The translations under genes were made by a program, and so were the position numbers. Of a stretch of 64,000 bases of DNA, positions 6,617 through 53,170 are shown one piece after another (within the stretch, counting starts at the first letter, position 1; the number at the start of each line of letters is the position of its first letter). This DNA is from Pseudomonas putida. Its GTDB lineage: Bacteria > Pseudomonadota > Gammaproteobacteria > Pseudomonadales > Pseudomonadaceae. The notes beneath the pieces were generated by a model that saw only the letters and a list, made by a program, of their open reading frames with translations, did not search any database and was not told the origin of the DNA. The stretch spans positions 1,736,001-1,800,000 of the forward strand of contig NZ_CP029693.1 in assembly GCF_003228315.1 (NCBI RefSeq). Direction: 5' to 3'.

Positions 6617-6716
6617 TGTAGGAGCGAGCATGCTCGCGATGGTCGCCAGAACACCACGGGGTGTCAGGCACCCCGCGTTTTCGTTAACGACCATCGCGAG
6701 CATGCTCGCTCCTACA
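6617..6716. repeat. REPIN, long class, CATGCTC arm variant
   Basis: Arms read GAGCGAGCATGCTCGCGAT, with A instead of C in the centre, in both arms. The compensated change suggests the pair evolves as a hairpin. Spacer CACGGGGTGTCAGGC is in forward orientation. Confidence 0.87.
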
Positions 6717-23440: not shown

Positions 23441-23719
23441 TTATTGGGACATGGCGTCCTTTTTCATCGCGTCCTTGGACATCGAATCGGTCTTCTTCAT
23501 GGCGTCCTTGGACATGGCGTCGCCCTTCTTCATCGTATCCTTGGACATTGAGTCGCCTTTCTTCATGGCGTCCTTGGACATCGAATCGGTCTTCTTCATC
23601 GCATCCTTGGACATCGAGTCCTTGCTCATGCTGTCGTTACTCATGGTGTCGGCAGCGAACACGGAGGCGGCGCCAACAGCCAGGCACATGGACAGAACAA
23701 CGGTGGTCAGCTTTTTCAT
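23441..23719 (-). CDS. Exported Met-rich MxKDx-repeat protein (MrpX-like)
   Basis: A 92-residue protein with a Sec signal peptide (MKKLTTVVLSMCLAVGAASVFA) and a mature part of about 70 residues built from DSMSKDAMKK-type pentapeptides. Thirteen of those 70 residues are methionine, and there is no cysteine or aromatic residue. It belongs to the pentapeptide MxKDx family. In Azospira suillum a similar peptide, MrpX, scavenges hypochlorite and is repaired by YedY1. Here it lies 50 bases downstream of a YedY-like gene on the same strand, which supports the same role. Confidence 0.85.
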   Translation of the reverse strand: MKKLTTVVLSMCLAVGAASVFAADTMSNDSMSKDSMSKDAMKKTDSMSKDAMKKGDSMSKDTMKKGDAMSKDAMKKTDSMSKDAMKKDAMSQ

Positions 23720-23771
23720 GATGAAACTCCTCGAGGCTCGGTTTGCGGGTGTGTGAAAACTTAAGGCGCTG

Positions 23772-47444: not shown

Positions 47445-47939
47445 TCATTTCGAGGCATTGCGAGGATCATCCTGTTTATCGACATACTCGATTCCCAGCG
47501 GCCCGGTCCCATATACCTGCGAGATGTACTCACCTGATCTGGCCCAATGAAAATGCGGGGTATTGGCCGGAAGGATCACAACGCTGCCCGGGCCGTAGGC
47601 AACTAGTTTGTCCGGATCGAAAACAGTGCCAAAGCCGATGTAGAAAACACCGGACATGACGGTGTAGATGCGGTTTTCGGGGTGGATGTGGGGCATCAGC
47701 TTGATGCCGTTGGGGACTTTGACGCGGACCACGTAAGGGGCTGGTTTGCCGGGGTCGCCGGCGATGACGGCCAGTTTTACTTCTACGGGGAAGGCGGGAA
47801 AGCTGCGCCATTCCACGTCTTCGTTGTGTATAGAGCCTGTTTTGTCCAGGGGCAGTGGTTCTGCCTGGGCCAGAGGGATGATTGCGCTTGCGACGATAAA
47901 TGCTGCCAGACCTGCTGTTTTAATCATGCTTTTGATCAT
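47445..47939 (-). CDS. Exported cupin-domain protein
   Basis: A 164-residue protein with a signal peptide (IKTAGLAAFIVASAIIPLAQA). One cupin barrel follows: PHIHPENRIYTVMSGVFYIGFG gives the first metal motif (H-x-H-x3-E) and GPGSVVILPANTPHFHWA the second histidine motif. Single-domain cupins bind a divalent metal, and many have oxygenase or epimerase activity. AGGGGATC precedes the ATG. It is divergent from the first repeat-protein cassette and follows the acyl-CoA oxidase-like gene. Confidence 0.82.
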   Translation of the reverse strand: MIKSMIKTAGLAAFIVASAIIPLAQAEPLPLDKTGSIHNEDVEWRSFPAFPVEVKLAVIAGDPGKPAPYVVRVKVPNGIKLMPHIHPENRIYTVMSGVFYIGFGTVFDPDKLVAYGPGSVVILPANTPHFHWARSGEYISQVYGTGPLGIEYVDKQDDPRNASK

Positions 47940-48073
47940 GAAAGATCCCCTGCTCCGTCACTCATACAAAACCGATTAGTCCACTGTATTAGTGATCGGC
48001 AAAGATGATAACGATGCGGTGACGCACAACTGTTGATACGCAATGTAATCAACGGCCGGACCGCAATTCCCCC

Positions 48074-48173
48074 TGTAGGAGCGAGCATGCTCGCGATGGA
48101 CTCAAGGACGCCGCGTTTATCCAGATATCCCGCGTTATCGTTGACGACCATCGCGAGCAGGCTCGCTCCTACA
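48074..48173. repeat. REPIN, mixed arms, degenerate spacer
   Basis: Left arm is the CATGCTC type while the right arm is the CAGGCTC type, unlike other elements. The spacer keeps CGCGTTATCGTTGACGACC but has lost the GGGGTGTC part. Confidence 0.8.
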
Positions 48174-48175
48174 GG

Positions 48176-48319
48176 GGGCATCATCAAAGCCACGAGCGGT
48201 AGTCCGCCCGCCATATCAATGCCGTCGATGTTCGCAATCACCTCAATCAAGTTCTGTTAAAAACCCTGCGGCGTAACAATGGCTCCACACCAACCAGAAC
48301 ACCCCCGGAGCACACGATC
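48176..48319 (+). promoter_or_regulatory. Conserved leader of repeat-protein cassette 1
   Basis: About 120 bases upstream of the ATG are almost identical in the three cassettes (compare 50838 and 52205), including AACCCTGCGGCGTAACAATG and GGAG 9 bases before the ATG. Such conservation outside coding sequence implies promoter and leader moved together with the gene. Confidence 0.6.
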
Positions 48320-48805
48320 ATGAAACGCCAAACCATCCTCAGCATCGTTTTCTCGGTTTTCGCAGTGAACGCTTTCGCCGCCACTTCCGCTCAACCTGTT
48401 GTCGCTGAAGGCGGCTCGGATCGTTTGATCGAAAGCCGTGTGGCAGAAGGTGGTTCCGACCGCCTGCAACAGAATCGTGTTGCCGAAGGTGGTTCGGATC
48501 GCCTGCTGGAAAAACGTAACGCAGTCGCTGCCGATGGTTCGGATCGTTTGAAAGGTAATGAAGTCGCCGCTGATGGCTCTGATCGCCTGAAAGGTAACGA
48601 AGTTGCTGCCGATGGCTCTGATCGCTTGAAAGGTAACGAAGTCGCCGCTGACGGCTCCGACCGCCTGCATGGCAACACTGTCGCCGCCGATGGCTCTGAC
48701 CGTCTGCACGGCAACACTGTCGCCGCCGATGGCTCTGACCGTCTGCACGGCAACACTGTCGCCGCCGATGGCTCCGACCGCCTGCACGGCAACACTGTCG
48801 CCTAA
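48320..48805 (+). CDS. Secreted 13-residue-repeat protein, copy 1 (10 repeats)
   Basis: A 161-residue protein with a signal peptide (KRQTILSIVFSVFAVNAFA) and then ten tandem units of 13 residues. Three are VAEGGSDRL-type, then VAADGSDRLKGNE three times and VAADGSDRLHGNT four times. The DNA repeats are 39 bases and nearly identical. Every unit has the GSDRL core; no cysteine or aromatic residue occurs. I do not recognise a functional domain. The repeats may bind metal or form an extended fibre, which is speculative. It ends at a strong terminator. Confidence 0.8.
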   Translation: MKRQTILSIVFSVFAVNAFAATSAQPVVAEGGSDRLIESRVAEGGSDRLQQNRVAEGGSDRLLEKRNAVAADGSDRLKGNEVAADGSDRLKGNEVAADGSDRLKGNEVAADGSDRLHGNTVAADGSDRLHGNTVAADGSDRLHGNTVAADGSDRLHGNTVA

Positions 48806-48830
48806 GACATTCGCTTCACCGCAACACCCG

Positions 48831-48864
48831 CAAAAAGCCCGGCCTGATCAGCCGGGCTTTTTCG
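48831..48864. terminator. Terminator after cassette 1
   Basis: AAAAAGCCCGGC...GCCGGGCTTTTT hairpin; identical stem at 52756 and 58184, one base different at 51338. Confidence 0.85.
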
Positions 48865-48878
48865 TGCCTGATTTCAAC

Positions 48879-49919
48879 TCAATCTAAGGAACGAACACTC
48901 CTGTCATCACGCGCAAAACGCATCGCATACTCCTTTGGACTGACCCCCAGCCGCCGGACGAACGCTTTGCGCAGCACATCAACACTGTTGTAACCGCATC
49001 GACGCGCGATCTCCTCCATCGAGCGCCCTCCCATCTCGAACGCCCTGCACGCCGCCTCAAGCCGCACGTCCTCGACATACTTCGCCGGTGTGGTTTTCAG
49101 GTCTCGCGCAAACTGCCGAATCAAGGTCCTGACGCTGGTCGACATGCGGTCGGCGAGAATTTCGACGGTCAGTTCCGTGTGCAGGTGTTCGCTGATCCAC
49201 ACGCACAACTTATCCAGGCTCGAACCGCTCGCACGCTGGGATTGCAGGGTCACGCTGAACTGCGCCTGGCCACCCGGACGACGCAGGAACAGGACCAGAT
49301 TCTTTGCGATGTCCATTGCCATTTCATCGCCAAGATCCTCACCGACCAGCGCCAGTGCCAGATCGATGCCGGCCGAGATGCCCGCCGAGGTGTAGATATG
49401 GCCGTCCTTGATCCAGATCGGGTTGGCGTCGACCTCGACCATGGGAAAACGCTCGGCCAATTCCCGCGCCATCCCCCAATGGGTCGTCGCCCGACGCCCG
49501 TCCAGCAGACCGGCGCCGGCCAGGGCAAACGCGGCAACGCAGATCGAACACACGCGACGCATGTTCGCCGAGCGCTCGCGTATCCAGACCATCGCCTCGC
49601 GATCCGGGTTGCTCGCCGAGTCCCAGCCGCTGGCGACTATCAGGGTATCGATGGGCTTGTCGTCCAGGCGCTCCTGCGCAAGGGTTTTGTGGGCGATCAA
49701 GCCAATGCCGGTCGCGCTTTGCAGTTGAAGATCGGCAGTAGAAGACACCAGTTCCAGCCGGTAAGGCGCGACCTCGCCGCCATACAGGCGATTGGCAACG
49801 GTAAAGACCTCCGCCGGGCCGATGACGTCGAGGGCATCCACGGGGTTCAAGCCCAGGATCACCACGCGTTTCTGCGCCTGACTGCCGCGCTGCCCACGGT
49901 TGCTCGAAGGTTTTTTCAT
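48879..49919 (-). CDS. GlxA family transcriptional regulator (DJ-1/PfpI + AraC)
   Basis: A 346-residue protein. A DJ-1/PfpI-like domain (VSSTADLQLQ, cysteine in SICVAAFALAGAGLLDGRRATTHW) is followed by an AraC domain with LTVEILADRMSTSVRTLIRQF and SMEEIARRCGYNSVDVLRKAFVRRLGVSP. The start at 49919 has ACGAGG upstream. It is divergent from an HD-domain enzyme gene with about 130 bases between, which it probably controls. The N-terminus is Lys/Arg-rich (KKPSSNRGQRGSQAQKR). Confidence 0.87.
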   Translation of the reverse strand: MKKPSSNRGQRGSQAQKRVVILGLNPVDALDVIGPAEVFTVANRLYGGEVAPYRLELVSSTADLQLQSATGIGLIAHKTLAQERLDDKPIDTLIVASGWDSASNPDREAMVWIRERSANMRRVCSICVAAFALAGAGLLDGRRATTHWGMARELAERFPMVEVDANPIWIKDGHIYTSAGISAGIDLALALVGEDLGDEMAMDIAKNLVLFLRRPGGQAQFSVTLQSQRASGSSLDKLCVWISEHLHTELTVEILADRMSTSVRTLIRQFARDLKTTPAKYVEDVRLEAACRAFEMGGRSMEEIARRCGYNSVDVLRKAFVRRLGVSPKEYAMRFARDDRSVRSLD

Positions 49920-50046
49920 GGATTGAACCTCGTGTGAATGCCCTGACAGGCGAATCACTCTGGCACAAATAAACTGAAAATAGTCATTTTGGACATTGGC
50001 GATAACTTTAGATTGGAGGCCAGTCAACTTCACTTGGTAAGCCCAC

Positions 50047-50688
50047 ATGAATACCCCAGTCACTATCGGCGGCATCATCGCCCCGGACTCCGAACTCACC
50101 CGCAAGGCGGCATCGCTCGTTGATCGGGTCCACTCCAGGGCGCTCAGCAATCACGTGCATCGCACATGGTGGTTCGCCGACTTTCTCGGTCAGCGACGTG
50201 GTTTCAAATACGACCGCGAAACGGTCTATCTCGCCGCACTGCTGCATGATCTGGGGCTCACCGACGAGTTCTGCGCCGACCAGCGTTTTGAAGTCGATGG
50301 CGCTGATGCGGCCAGCCGTTTCCTGCTCTCGAACGGCTACCCGCAGGAGAAGGCAGAGCTGGTCTGGGATGCCATCGCGCTGCACTCCAGTGCCGGTATC
50401 GCCGATCGCAAGCAGCCGGAAATCGCCCTGATCTACATGGGCGCCCACGTCGATGTCATGGGCCTGTTCATGGAAGAAATCACGCCCTCGCTGATCGACG
50501 ACACCCTCGCGCTGTATCCCCGCATCGGCATGAAGGCCGCGTTTGCCCAGGCGGTGGCCGAAGTCGCCAGGAAGAAACCGCATACCGCCATCGGCACCGG
50601 GCTGGCGGATGTCGGACGTCGCCACATCCATGGGTTCGATTGCCCGAACGTGTGTGACCTGATCGACAACGCACCGTTCGATAGTTAA
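50047..50688 (+). CDS. HD-domain hydrolase, cyanamide hydratase-like
   Basis: A 213-residue HD-superfamily protein. Metal ligands are seen in NHVHRTWWFADF, the HD pair in YLAALLHDLGLTD, and later histidine/aspartate in IALHSSAGIADR and MGAHVDVMG. Spacing resembles the DDI2/cyanamide hydratase group rather than nucleotide phosphohydrolases. It is divergent from a GlxA regulator. Substrate unproven. Confidence 0.82.
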   Translation: MNTPVTIGGIIAPDSELTRKAASLVDRVHSRALSNHVHRTWWFADFLGQRRGFKYDRETVYLAALLHDLGLTDEFCADQRFEVDGADAASRFLLSNGYPQEKAELVWDAIALHSSAGIADRKQPEIALIYMGAHVDVMGLFMEEITPSLIDDTLALYPRIGMKAAFAQAVAEVARKKPHTAIGTGLADVGRRHIHGFDCPNVCDLIDNAPFDS

Positions 50689-50735
50689 GGGGGATTCTTC
50701 GAGAAAAACGGGATGTCATGTACGGCATGAATCCC

Positions 50736-50835
50736 TGTAGGAGCGAGCCTGCTCGCGATGGACGTCAACGATAACGCGGGCAGCCTGACACCCCACTGCG
50801 CCCTCAGGTTCATCGCGAGCATGCTCGCTCCTACA
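50736..50835. repeat. REPIN, long class, reverse spacer, mixed arms
   Basis: Left arm CCTGCTC, right arm CATGCTC. Precedes cassette 2 as the element at 48074 precedes cassette 1, and the bases after both are alike. Confidence 0.85.
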
Positions 50836-50837
50836 AG

Positions 50838-50981
50838 GGGCTTCATCAAGCTCACGAGCGGTAGTCCGGTCGCCCTATCAATGCCGTCGATGTTCGCAAT
50901 CACGTCAATCAAGTTCTGTTGAAAACCCTGCGGCGTAACAATGGCTCCACACCAACCAGAACACCCCCGGAGCACACGATC
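50838..50981 (+). promoter_or_regulatory. Conserved leader of cassette 2
   Basis: Near-identical to 48176-48319, with similarity beginning just at the REPIN edge (CACGAGCGGTAGTCCG). Confidence 0.6.
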
Positions 50982-51311
50982 ATGAAACGCCAAACCATCC
51001 TCAGCATCGTTTTCTCGGTTTTCGCAGTGAACGCTTTCGCCGCCACTTCCGCTCAACCTGTTGTCGCTGAAGGCGGCTCGAATCGCCTGATCGAAAGCCG
51101 CGTGGCAGAAGGCGGTTCCGATCGCCTGCAACAGAATCGTGTTGCCGAAGGTGGTTCGGATCGCCTGCTGGAAAAACGTAACGCAGTCGCTGCCGATGGT
51201 TCGGATCGTTTGAAAGGTAATGAAGTCGCCGCCGATGGCTCCGATCGCCTGAAAGGCAACGAAGTCGCCGCCGATGGCTCCGACCGCCTGCACGGCAACA
51301 CCGTCGCCTGA
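50982..51311 (+). CDS. Secreted 13-residue-repeat protein, copy 2 (6 repeats)
   Basis: A 109-residue protein with the same signal peptide as copy 1. The mature part has three GGS-type units (the first reads GGSNRL), two VAADGSDRLKGNE and one VAADGSDRLHGNT. The length difference from copy 1 is exactly four units. It lies between an HD-domain enzyme and a possible nuclease gene, with its own terminator. Confidence 0.8.
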   Translation: MKRQTILSIVFSVFAVNAFAATSAQPVVAEGGSNRLIESRVAEGGSDRLQQNRVAEGGSDRLLEKRNAVAADGSDRLKGNEVAADGSDRLKGNEVAADGSDRLHGNTVA

Positions 51312-51337
51312 GACATTCGCTTCACAGCAACACCCAC

Positions 51338-51369
51338 AAAAAGCCCGGTCTGATCAGCCGGGCTTTTTC
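51338..51369. terminator. Terminator after cassette 2
   Basis: As at 48831, with one base change in the loop-side stem (GGTC for GGCC). Confidence 0.85.
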
Positions 51370-51487
51370 GTGCTCGCCGTTTCACTCACAGACCATGAGC
51401 GGCCTCTATTGCGCTGGAGGATTGCCCCGGTGTTGAATGCCACTGTTTGGCCATCAATTATCGTTCGAATCCACAAGGAAGTTACCC

Positions 51488-52120
51488 ATGCCGGGCATCA
51501 GTAACGTTGCAACCGCCTTTAGCGAATTCATGCAGTCCTGGGAGGTGGAACGCAACTATCTACCCTCTTCAATCGGTGCACTGGCCAACGGCTTCGAAGG
51601 ATGGCTGAAGTTCGAGTTTTACTTCTGGCTGATCCGCGCCCGTCACCTTCGCGGCCCTCACGATGGCTGGATGGGCGATGTCGGCGTCGAGTACAAGGTC
51701 GCGCTCGATCAGCGCTGGACCGACATGGATATCGAAAAGAAACAATGCGACATGTGGGTCCGCGACCACGACGAAAAGCGCTTTCACTTCATCGAACTCA
51801 AGGCACCTTTCGCCAATAACAACCAGGGCAAGATGTTCGAGAGCGCGGCCAAGGATTATTGGTACATGACCCGCCTGAAAGCACAGGCGGAGAAGGTCGC
51901 GACAGGCAGTGTGATTATTCTGGGTGTGAACTTTGAGGAGGAGGAGCGCTGGGAGCGGCACCTGCGACAGGTCGAGGAGTATGCGGGCTACGTCGAGCAT
52001 TCATCCAGCGCGTCCGGTGTGGTGCCTGGGGTAGACGGTTTGAGGTGGGCGGTGCTGACCATGCATTACCCGCAGGTGGGTGGGTTTGTGCCGCCGACAA
52101 CCGAGGCACAAATGCTGTGA
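51488..52120 (+). CDS. Possible PD-(D/E)XK-fold protein
   Basis: A 210-residue protein without a clear family. It has an N-terminal helical region (FSEFMQSWEVERNYLPSS...FEGWLKFEFYFWLI), then EYKVALDQRW...DMWVRDHDEKRFHFIELKAPF. D-x-hydrophobic stretch-E-L-K resembles a PD-(D/E)XK nuclease core, and GSVIILGVNF with a helical RLKAQAEK follows. AAGGAAG precedes the ATG. It sits between repeat cassettes 2 and 3. Fold and function are inferred only from that motif. Confidence 0.6.
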   Translation: MPGISNVATAFSEFMQSWEVERNYLPSSIGALANGFEGWLKFEFYFWLIRARHLRGPHDGWMGDVGVEYKVALDQRWTDMDIEKKQCDMWVRDHDEKRFHFIELKAPFANNNQGKMFESAAKDYWYMTRLKAQAEKVATGSVIILGVNFEEEERWERHLRQVEEYAGYVEHSSSASGVVPGVDGLRWAVLTMHYPQVGGFVPPTTEAQML

Positions 52121-52169
52121 TCGCCAGGCCGCTGCGTTAATCCTGGCAGTGTGCGTCATCGTTGACGCC

Positions 52170-52194
52170 CATCGCGAGCAGGCTCGCTCCCACA
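52170..52194. repeat. Single REP arm
   Basis: One arm ATCGCGAGCAGGCTCGCTCC, preceded by GTCATCGTTGACGCCC, which is the right end of a long-class spacer; the left half of the REPIN is lost. Confidence 0.8.
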
Positions 52195-52204
52195 GGGGCG
52201 ATAG

Positions 52205-52321
52205 TCTGCTCACCCTATCAATGCCGTCGATGTTCGCCATCACATCAATCAAGTTCTATTGAAAACCCTGCGGCGTAACAATGGCTCCACACCAACCAAA
52301 ACACCCCCGGAGCACACGATC
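52205..52321 (+). promoter_or_regulatory. Conserved leader of cassette 3
   Basis: Same leader as cassettes 1 and 2 with a handful of changes (for example TTCTATTG for TTCTGTTG). Confidence 0.6.
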
Positions 52322-52729
52322 ATGAAACGCCAAACCATCCTCAGCATCGTTTTCTCGGTTTTCGCAGTGAACGCTTTCGCCGCCACTTCCGCTCAACCCG
52401 TGGTCGCTGAAGGCGGCTCGGATCGTCTGATCGAAAGCCGTGTAGCGGAAGGTGGCTCTGACCGCCTGCAACAGAATCGTGTGGCTGAAGGTGGTTCGGA
52501 TCGCCTGCTGGAAAAACGTAACGCAGTCGCTGCCGATGGTTCGGATCGTTTGAAAGGTAACGAAGTTGCCGCTGATGGCTCTGATCGCCTGAAAGGTAAC
52601 GAAGTTGCTGCCGACGGTTCTGATCGCCTGAAAGGCAACGAAGTTGCTGCCGATGGCTCTGATCATCTGAAAGGCAACGAAGTCGCTGCCGATGGCTCCG
52701 ACCGCCTGCACGGCAGCACCGTCGCTTAA
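52322..52729 (+). CDS. Secreted 13-residue-repeat protein, copy 3 (8 repeats)
   Basis: A 135-residue protein of the same family. Three GGSDRL units, four VAADGSD-type LKGNE units (one reads DHLKGNE) and a final LHGST unit. The length differs from copy 1 by exactly two units. Synonymous differences between copies show the arrays have diverged a little since duplication. Confidence 0.8.
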   Translation: MKRQTILSIVFSVFAVNAFAATSAQPVVAEGGSDRLIESRVAEGGSDRLQQNRVAEGGSDRLLEKRNAVAADGSDRLKGNEVAADGSDRLKGNEVAADGSDRLKGNEVAADGSDHLKGNEVAADGSDRLHGSTVA

Positions 52730-52755
52730 GACATTCGCTTCACAGCAACACCCGC

Positions 52756-52787
52756 AAAAAGCCCGGCCTGATCAGCCGGGCTTTTTC
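52756..52787. terminator. Terminator after cassette 3
   Basis: Same GCCCGGC/GCCGGGC hairpin as at 48831. Confidence 0.85.
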
Positions 52788-53170
52788 GTGGATGCTGTAG
52801 TGAAAGCGGCATCAGCTCCATTGGCCAGTTACGTTGTTCCGCAACGCCCTCCAGACAAAGAGACAAGTCACTCTCAATCCAACAAATAAACACGCCACCT
52901 CTTCTCAACCGAGGGTGAGTGAACGGTTTGCAGATTTCCCGTAGCGGTTGAACCGGTTGTGAAGCTTGAAGGCATTTTATGATCGAAAAAAATCCGGCTG
53001 TGGTGACAGCTCTTTCTTGCACTCTGTAGTGATCAGCATTGACTGTCTGATGTGCAACACCTGCATTGTCCAAATTGAATAGATGTTCAAGTGCAAATAT
53101 CTCAACTTCATCGAGCTTCACTCATCTCCCTCACAACAATGATTGAGTTCCTGGCCTTCGCCATATCGCC

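Follow-up and report, generated by a model that had tools for sequence, protein, structure and literature searches.

Why does a single chromosome keep three nearly identical genes for a small, apparently secreted repeat protein so close together, each with its own leader and hairpin? The genes lie in a 64,000-nucleotide stretch of Pseudomonas putida DNA (assembly GCF_003228315.1, contig NZ_CP029693.1, positions 1,736,001 to 1,800,000; hereafter, the window), in which an original prediction made from the letters alone had described three near-identical cassettes of upstream leader, gene and terminator hairpin. This description was confirmed by the coordinates, the shared start of the proteins and the points at which homology ends (Table 1). 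On balance, the cassettes probably belong to a Pseudomonas family of predicted Sec-exported, disordered 13-residue-repeat proteins that are carried as box-array-hairpin units of their own and whose dispersed copies are likely homogenised by gene conversion. The family occupies many chromosomal positions, a conserved upstream box was tied to the gene at every locus opened, unit number differed between species, and the copies followed a concerted pattern of similarity.

The cassette unit and its upstream box

Similarity between cassettes 2 and 3 begins at −124, between cassettes 1 and 3 at about −200 (half REPIN included) and between cassettes 1 and 2 at −249 (REPIN included), and in all three copies it stops where the terminator hairpin ends, at +61 or +62; the 1.80-Mb copy was excluded from this comparison. 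The cassette unit runs from about −110 to about +62. The terminator-like hairpins are GC-rich, have a T tail and occupy the same place after all three genes, although a hairpin alone is weak evidence, as a scan of both strands returned 7 sites versus 5.7 in shuffles. All three proteins share a 20-residue signal-peptide-like start and a short linker, followed by 10, 6 and 8 GSDRL-type cores (variants: one GSNRL, one GSDHL). In each protein three units are of the AEGG type and the remainder of the AADG type, and the third unit has 15 residues where the others have 13. As predicted, the differences in length amount to whole units (26 and 26 amino acids), and the corresponding 39-base DNA arrays were detected by Tandem Repeats Finder. 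That three cassettes recur within 4.6 kb also held, but the family is not confined to this span, as 8 more members lie elsewhere.

In 113 upstream rows, which contain some duplicates and represent 109 distinct regions, a conserved block extends from the start codon back to about −105. It opens with a 15-bp inverted repeat, either of class A (resembling ATCAATGCCGTCGAT) or of class B (resembling ATTGACTGCGTCAAT). After this repeat come TCACCAT, another symmetric element (CAATGAAGTTCTC) and TAACAT, which resembles a −10 element. With TAACAT assumed to be the −10 element, the first repeat would be centred at about −64 and the second element would lie over the −35 position. LysR-type activator promoters carry an ATC-N9-GAT inverted repeat around −65 and another site around −35, and given the assumed −10 the sequence and spacing of the box appear to resemble this layout. 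A promoter scan found no consensus sigma-70 promoter in the upstream region, which is consistent with a need for an activator. In the second element, the paired positions were G/C in 94 of the 109 distinct regions, C/G in 7 (five host-genome copies and two of PS918), C/A in 2 (cassette 3 of the window and one copy of G002), C/C in 1 and off-pattern in 5. The symmetric double change would fit a dimeric protein; the C/G cases are related and may stem from one event, and C/A and C/C break the symmetry. A leader hairpin hiding the ribosome site was considered and dropped, since by eye the predicted start falls inside one arm and relatives break the stem.

In the complete per-genome table, the box was present in 152 of 298 Pseudomonas genomes, while a reversed-pattern control gave 0 matches. 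The host genome had the most copies (7), and the next genomes had 5 when counted by eye. Each of the 30 box loci returned is followed, at a distance of 60 to 86 bases (35 in one case, with an earlier start codon), by a GSDRL-type gene that begins with MKRQ or MKTQ and contains an AEGG or AADG word. At least two units were counted by script in 26 of these loci, and the other 4 appear interrupted where the contig ends, at a gap or at a break in the frame. When two mismatches were allowed in the host genome, the pattern matched the 7 cassettes and 2 other, chance-like sites, compared with 1 match for the control. A wider box regulon was rejected on these counts. The tie between box and gene offers a direct handle on the regulator.

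Twelve matches in the host genome correspond to 11 family genes, the last two rows being one gene. The box precedes 7 of them: the three window genes plus the copies at 58.0, 59.3, 1803.0 and 2240.9 kb. The remaining four are more diverged; these members (G000:C1:3038980, 1684436, 6818010 and 4803467) have other words and leaders (ADGYDRTGGAT, AEGGADRLQELRER) and no box at two mismatches. Of 57 genomes searched, 36 were from Pseudomonas (host included), and 32 of these had the family; it was present in 0 of 21 genomes of other genera. The copy counts may be too low, because several draft contigs break off inside or close to a cassette. A protein database search returned 573 relatives above threshold; among the 120 of these that were listed, any name given by a source was a form of "hypothetical protein" or "phage infection protein". 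The loci of relatives were taken from the best 80 of 241 relatives (78 loci), and the family frame list comprised 135 frames, one of them plainly outside the family. No Pfam or NCBIfam family scored above its cut-off for any of the three proteins; the best sub-threshold families were PF20844 (21.5 bits, cut-off 43) and NF041599. Text searches of the papers available found no description of the family, nothing combining GSDRL with Pseudomonas and nothing with AEGGADR.

Concerted similarity among dispersed copies

Identity was compared for 67 cassettes in 24 genomes grouped by contig name, with 65 cassettes in genomes holding more than one; other loci were left out. Coding starts were more similar within genomes (0.947) than between them (0.894), and the nearest neighbour of a coding start was in the same genome in 39 of 65 cases, compared with 30 for the promoter, 21 for the box, 23 for the downstream part and 12 for the far upstream part. 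The set comprised 32 class A and 35 class B boxes. Box identity was 0.711 between copies of different class within a genome versus 0.874 between copies of the same class in different genomes, whereas the corresponding coding-start values were 0.939 and 0.895. The observed coding-start difference was reached in 0 of 500 shuffles of genome labels within class, a procedure that ignores the relatedness of the genomes. Boxes thus track class and coding parts track genome, which is the pattern expected of gene conversion limited mainly to the gene. The dispersed copies show concerted evolution, with gene conversion as the most likely cause. The recombination between cassettes that had been predicted is supported by this pattern and by the REPIN and leader that cassette 1 (1784 kb) and the 2241-kb copy share at 97%, and the latter implies that some tracts or duplications extend beyond the gene. 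Concerted evolution across two operator classes provides a natural test of how frequently gene conversion occurs between distant loci of a bacterial chromosome.

Recent duplication and loss without gene conversion, which would make the cassettes ordinary paralogues, could also account for copies in the host that are mostly 95 to 97% identical, and the REPIN and leader shared by cassette 1 and the 2.24-Mb copy are in line with it. However, at least 8 genomes have a copy at the cupin-side locus, which makes this copy old, and still its coding part is similar to those of the other copies in the same genome. Furthermore, box classes are shared between genomes and coding starts are not. We regard duplication without conversion as rather unlikely.

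That REPINs carry the cassette about is suggested by the REPIN or half REPIN upstream of all three cassettes and by a modest excess of upstream repetitive extragenic palindromic (REP) cores, at 22 of 109 cassettes versus 30 of 344 long open reading frame controls. However, 87 of the 109 cassettes have no upstream REP, downstream REPs are rarer than in controls (10 of 111 versus 52 of 362), and two relatives carry the cupin-side cassette without a REPIN. Transport by REPINs is extremely improbable, being mostly refuted by the REP counts and the REPIN-free relatives; only joint copying in the host remains of it. The window as a whole is rich in REPs and REPINs, with 36 REP cores (e.g., at 6617, 8241, 14925, 19961 and 25280).

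Repeat units and changing neighbours

Substitution distances were calculated from 45 units of seven copies that fit the 13-residue pattern, with the 15-residue third units left out. The 31 ADG-type units comprised 26 DNA versions and 5 protein versions, with a synonymous distance (Ks) of 0.85 and a nonsynonymous distance (Ka) of 0.088; the 14 EGG-type units gave values of 1.06 and 0.093, respectively. Judged by these distances, the repeat word is under strong purifying selection and most units are old. The 39-base repeats, which the original prediction took to be prone to slippage, are rather diverged as DNA; few adjacent units are therefore identical, units 8 and 9 of the cassette 1 gene being a case in which they are.

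In 112 proteins, which had between 3 and 14 units and most commonly 8, successive cores were 13 residues apart in 743 of 824 steps. At the cupin-side locus, intact copies in seven relatives have 12 (REP124), 9, 8, 8, 8, 7 and 10 units; the host copy has 10 and that of one further genome 9, while one copy is broken and one is cut by a contig end. Repeat number is thus not fixed among related genomes, and the expected variation by whole units is supported between species (7 to 12 units at this locus in 8 genomes, with one genome per species). Higher-order repeats of 26 residues, made of two alternating unit types, occur at L181, L183 and L191 and are a sign of gains in two-unit blocks.

Near-identical tandem words behind a signal peptide, with ERR or EKR at unit ends in some species, would also be found in a precursor from which many short signal or antimicrobial peptides are excised. 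However, the commonest host units (KGNEV, HGNTV) have no dibasic site, and the neighbours of the cassettes vary, with none in the stretches opened resembling a processing system. Such a precursor is very unlikely.

The genes between the cassettes are unrelated to them, as predicted; Pfam and NCBIfam matching was applied to the AraC/DJ-1, HD and 210-amino-acid genes (Table 1), and the HD-domain protein matches the cyanamide hydratase family below its cut-off. In Pseudomonas sp. REP124, the cupin gene is succeeded by a single cassette of 12 units, then by ArsR, quinone-oxidoreductase-like and ABM genes, and finally by the same SBP, agmatinase-like and LysR genes as in the host; the AraC-HD pair and the second and third cassettes are missing from this locus. 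C1C7 has the order cassette, AraC, HD, NmrA and next leader on a single short contig. Among 199 Pseudomonas genomes, the HD gene was found in 3 (E ≤ 1e−60) and the cupin gene in 10 (strict cut-off), with a cassette within about 1.5 kb at 4 of the 10 cupin loci. The proposed deletion of intervening genes is suggested by the arrangement in REP124, but one genome has AraC-HD with no cassette within 16 kb, which allows another history.

The slots between cassettes hold changing accessory genes; that the cassettes cause this exchange is put forward as a hypothesis only. A broader interpretation, possible but tentative, is that the box-gene-terminator cassettes form an intragenomic population in which coding arrays are overwritten while two ancient operator classes stay. 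One peptide would then answer to two regulatory inputs, with dose and valency set by copy and unit number, and the cassettes would serve as recombination ports that swap AraC-HD and ArsR-quinone oxidoreductase-ABM modules.

Two further features of these surroundings were observed. A chorismate-mutase-type gene with a signal-peptide-like start recurs beside cassettes (L140, 2687-3283; L160, L161 and L162), and by eye also at L055, L072, L093 and L110. A palindrome-like element (GTTGATACGCAATGTAATCAA; window 48001-48060) lies upstream of the cupin gene and is kept before most of the cupin genes compared.

Table 1. Positions in the window of the three cassettes and the features around them
Feature	Position	Strand	Basis or remark
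Cupin-domain gene, left syntenic landmark	47445..47939	-	Weak Cupin_2 match
REPIN directly upstream of cassette 1	48074..48180	.	REP cores; not a component of the cassette in relatives (two lack it beside the cupin-side cassette)
Class A 15-bp inverted repeat, cassette 1	48215..48229	+	Conserved in 113 upstream rows; predicted activator site
Second symmetric element, cassette 1, over predicted −35	48243..48260	+	Upstream-row alignment
Cassette 1 gene, 161 aa, 10 units	48320..48805	+	
Cassette 1 terminator-like hairpin	48832..48862	+	Hairpin scan: 48841
AraC/DJ-1 type regulator, between cassettes 1 and 2	48879..49919	-	Pfam/NCBIfam
HD-domain protein, between cassettes 1 and 2	50047..50688	+	Pfam/NCBIfam
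Further REPIN	~50736-50840		REP cores
Class A inverted repeat, cassette 2	50877..50891	+	Equivalent of cassette 1 repeat
Cassette 2 gene, 109 aa, 6 units	50982..51311	+	
Cassette 2 terminator-like hairpin	51338..51368	+	Hairpin scan: 51347
210-aa protein, no clear family, between cassettes 2 and 3	51488..52120	+	No match above cut-off
Half REPIN	~52183		REP cores
Class A inverted repeat, cassette 3	52217..52231	+	Equivalent of cassette 1 repeat
Cassette 3 gene, 135 aa, 8 units	52322..52729	+	
Cassette 3 terminator-like hairpin	52756..52786	+	Hairpin scan: 52765

The predicted product and its likeness to known systems

Export across the inner membrane is predicted from the signal-peptide-like start alone. 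An AlphaFold model built with 27 aligned sequences had a mean predicted local distance difference test (pLDDT) score of 40.7 and no confident fold, which is consistent with disorder, and a PDB sequence search with the same alignment found no matching chain. The mature proteins of the window are acidic (pI 4.8 to 5.1), lack Cys, Met, Phe, Trp and Tyr and contain 1 to 4 His. The charges of the unit are better balanced in other species (e.g., VAEGGSDRLIERR). Hydrophilins are defined by more than 6% glycine and a mean hydrophilicity above 1. The first mature protein has 20 glycines in 141 residues, but the grand average of hydropathy (−0.74 to −0.75) falls short of the hydrophilicity threshold.

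With modest confidence, these properties suggest an exported repeat protein, disordered and induced by stress, with copies and units determining its dose and valency. An activator would bind the box, whose layout is LysR-like, with ATC-N9-GAT at about −64 and the second symmetric site over −35, and a single activator of this kind could turn on the copies jointly. The numbers of units and copies would then set the dose and valency of the product, which may act in the periplasm or at the cell surface as an unstructured multivalent filler or ligand.

Several observations weigh against this interpretation as a whole. The family members are known here from sequence alone, and low pLDDT in a repeat modelled with 27 aligned sequences is a weak sign of disorder. 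No box-bearing regulator gene was found in the host genome at two mismatches, although a regulator without the box is possible. Beyond the relatedness that the label shuffles disregard, 26 of 65 coding starts are nearest to a copy from another genome, and recent duplication could account for part of the likeness within genomes. The three proteins scored 24.4, 28.6 and 27.2 bits against NF041599, the family of PtrA (PA2808), below its cut-off of 31, and hhalign aligned PtrA with the family over 13 columns at 29.7%.

Among known systems, REPINs are likewise a dispersed, near-identical chromosomal family of Pseudomonas and adjoin these cassettes. However, they are short non-coding mobile repeats, whereas the cassettes code for a protein and frequently lack a neighbouring REP. 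An exported-looking repeat protein with MSKD/MKK words and 33-base tandem repeats is encoded elsewhere in the window (23441-23720, minus strand), and we take it to resemble the Pseudomonas pentapeptide MXKDX repeat proteins. Those are also exported low-complexity repeat proteins, but their word is MSKD/MKK and no shared leader was noticed. RTX calcium-binding repeats (PF00353) have a similar G-x-D-x-L pattern. RTX repeats have a nine-residue period. Identity with RTX was rejected, as the first protein scored 15.1 bits (cut-off 23), the others were unlisted and the period is 13 rather than 9.

Database records of Pseudomonas named "phage infection protein" belong to the same family by sequence, but the name is unsupported, as no related Pfam or NCBIfam family was matched. 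A family whose box occurs in about half of the genomes sampled, in up to 7 copies, thus bears a misleading name. Genes of this name were upregulated 32-fold when P. fluorescens In5 faced Rhizoctonia solani, according to one report (PMC5557065), and another describes a "phage infection protein" of 2P24 as InvF-dependent and carrying a Sec/SPI signal (PMC8490769); in both cases these are only candidate members of the present family.

The closest likeness is to PtrA. PtrA and its relatives are small proteins with a signal peptide and the word AEGG[AGS]DR at or near the mature start. Two reports describe PtrA as periplasmic, as increasing copper tolerance and, among PAO1-specific genes, as the one most strongly induced under zinc, while its role in type III secretion is disputed (PMC7922089, PMC7744410). 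A multivalent version of PtrA that buffers metal in the periplasm would be in keeping with that role, with the AEGGxDR word common to both after the signal peptide and with the acidic repeats of the host. However, the mature proteins have neither Cys nor Met and few His, the unit is charge-balanced in other species and the PtrA family cut-off was not reached. Metal buffering is an unlikely function; the metal-binding test proposed in the original prediction is reasonable despite this composition.

PtrA-like proteins differ in carrying the word once only and in having another C-terminal part that ends in Cys. In 1.3 Mb of loci, which were fetched for these families and are not an unbiased sample, 84 proteins had several words and 18 a single word, 10 of the latter being PtrA-like and 8 of the GSDRL kind. 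In the family described here, AEGGxDR also follows the signal peptide, but behind a short linker and in several copies; the exported product would thus multiply a word that PtrA-like metal-response proteins carry once at the mature start.

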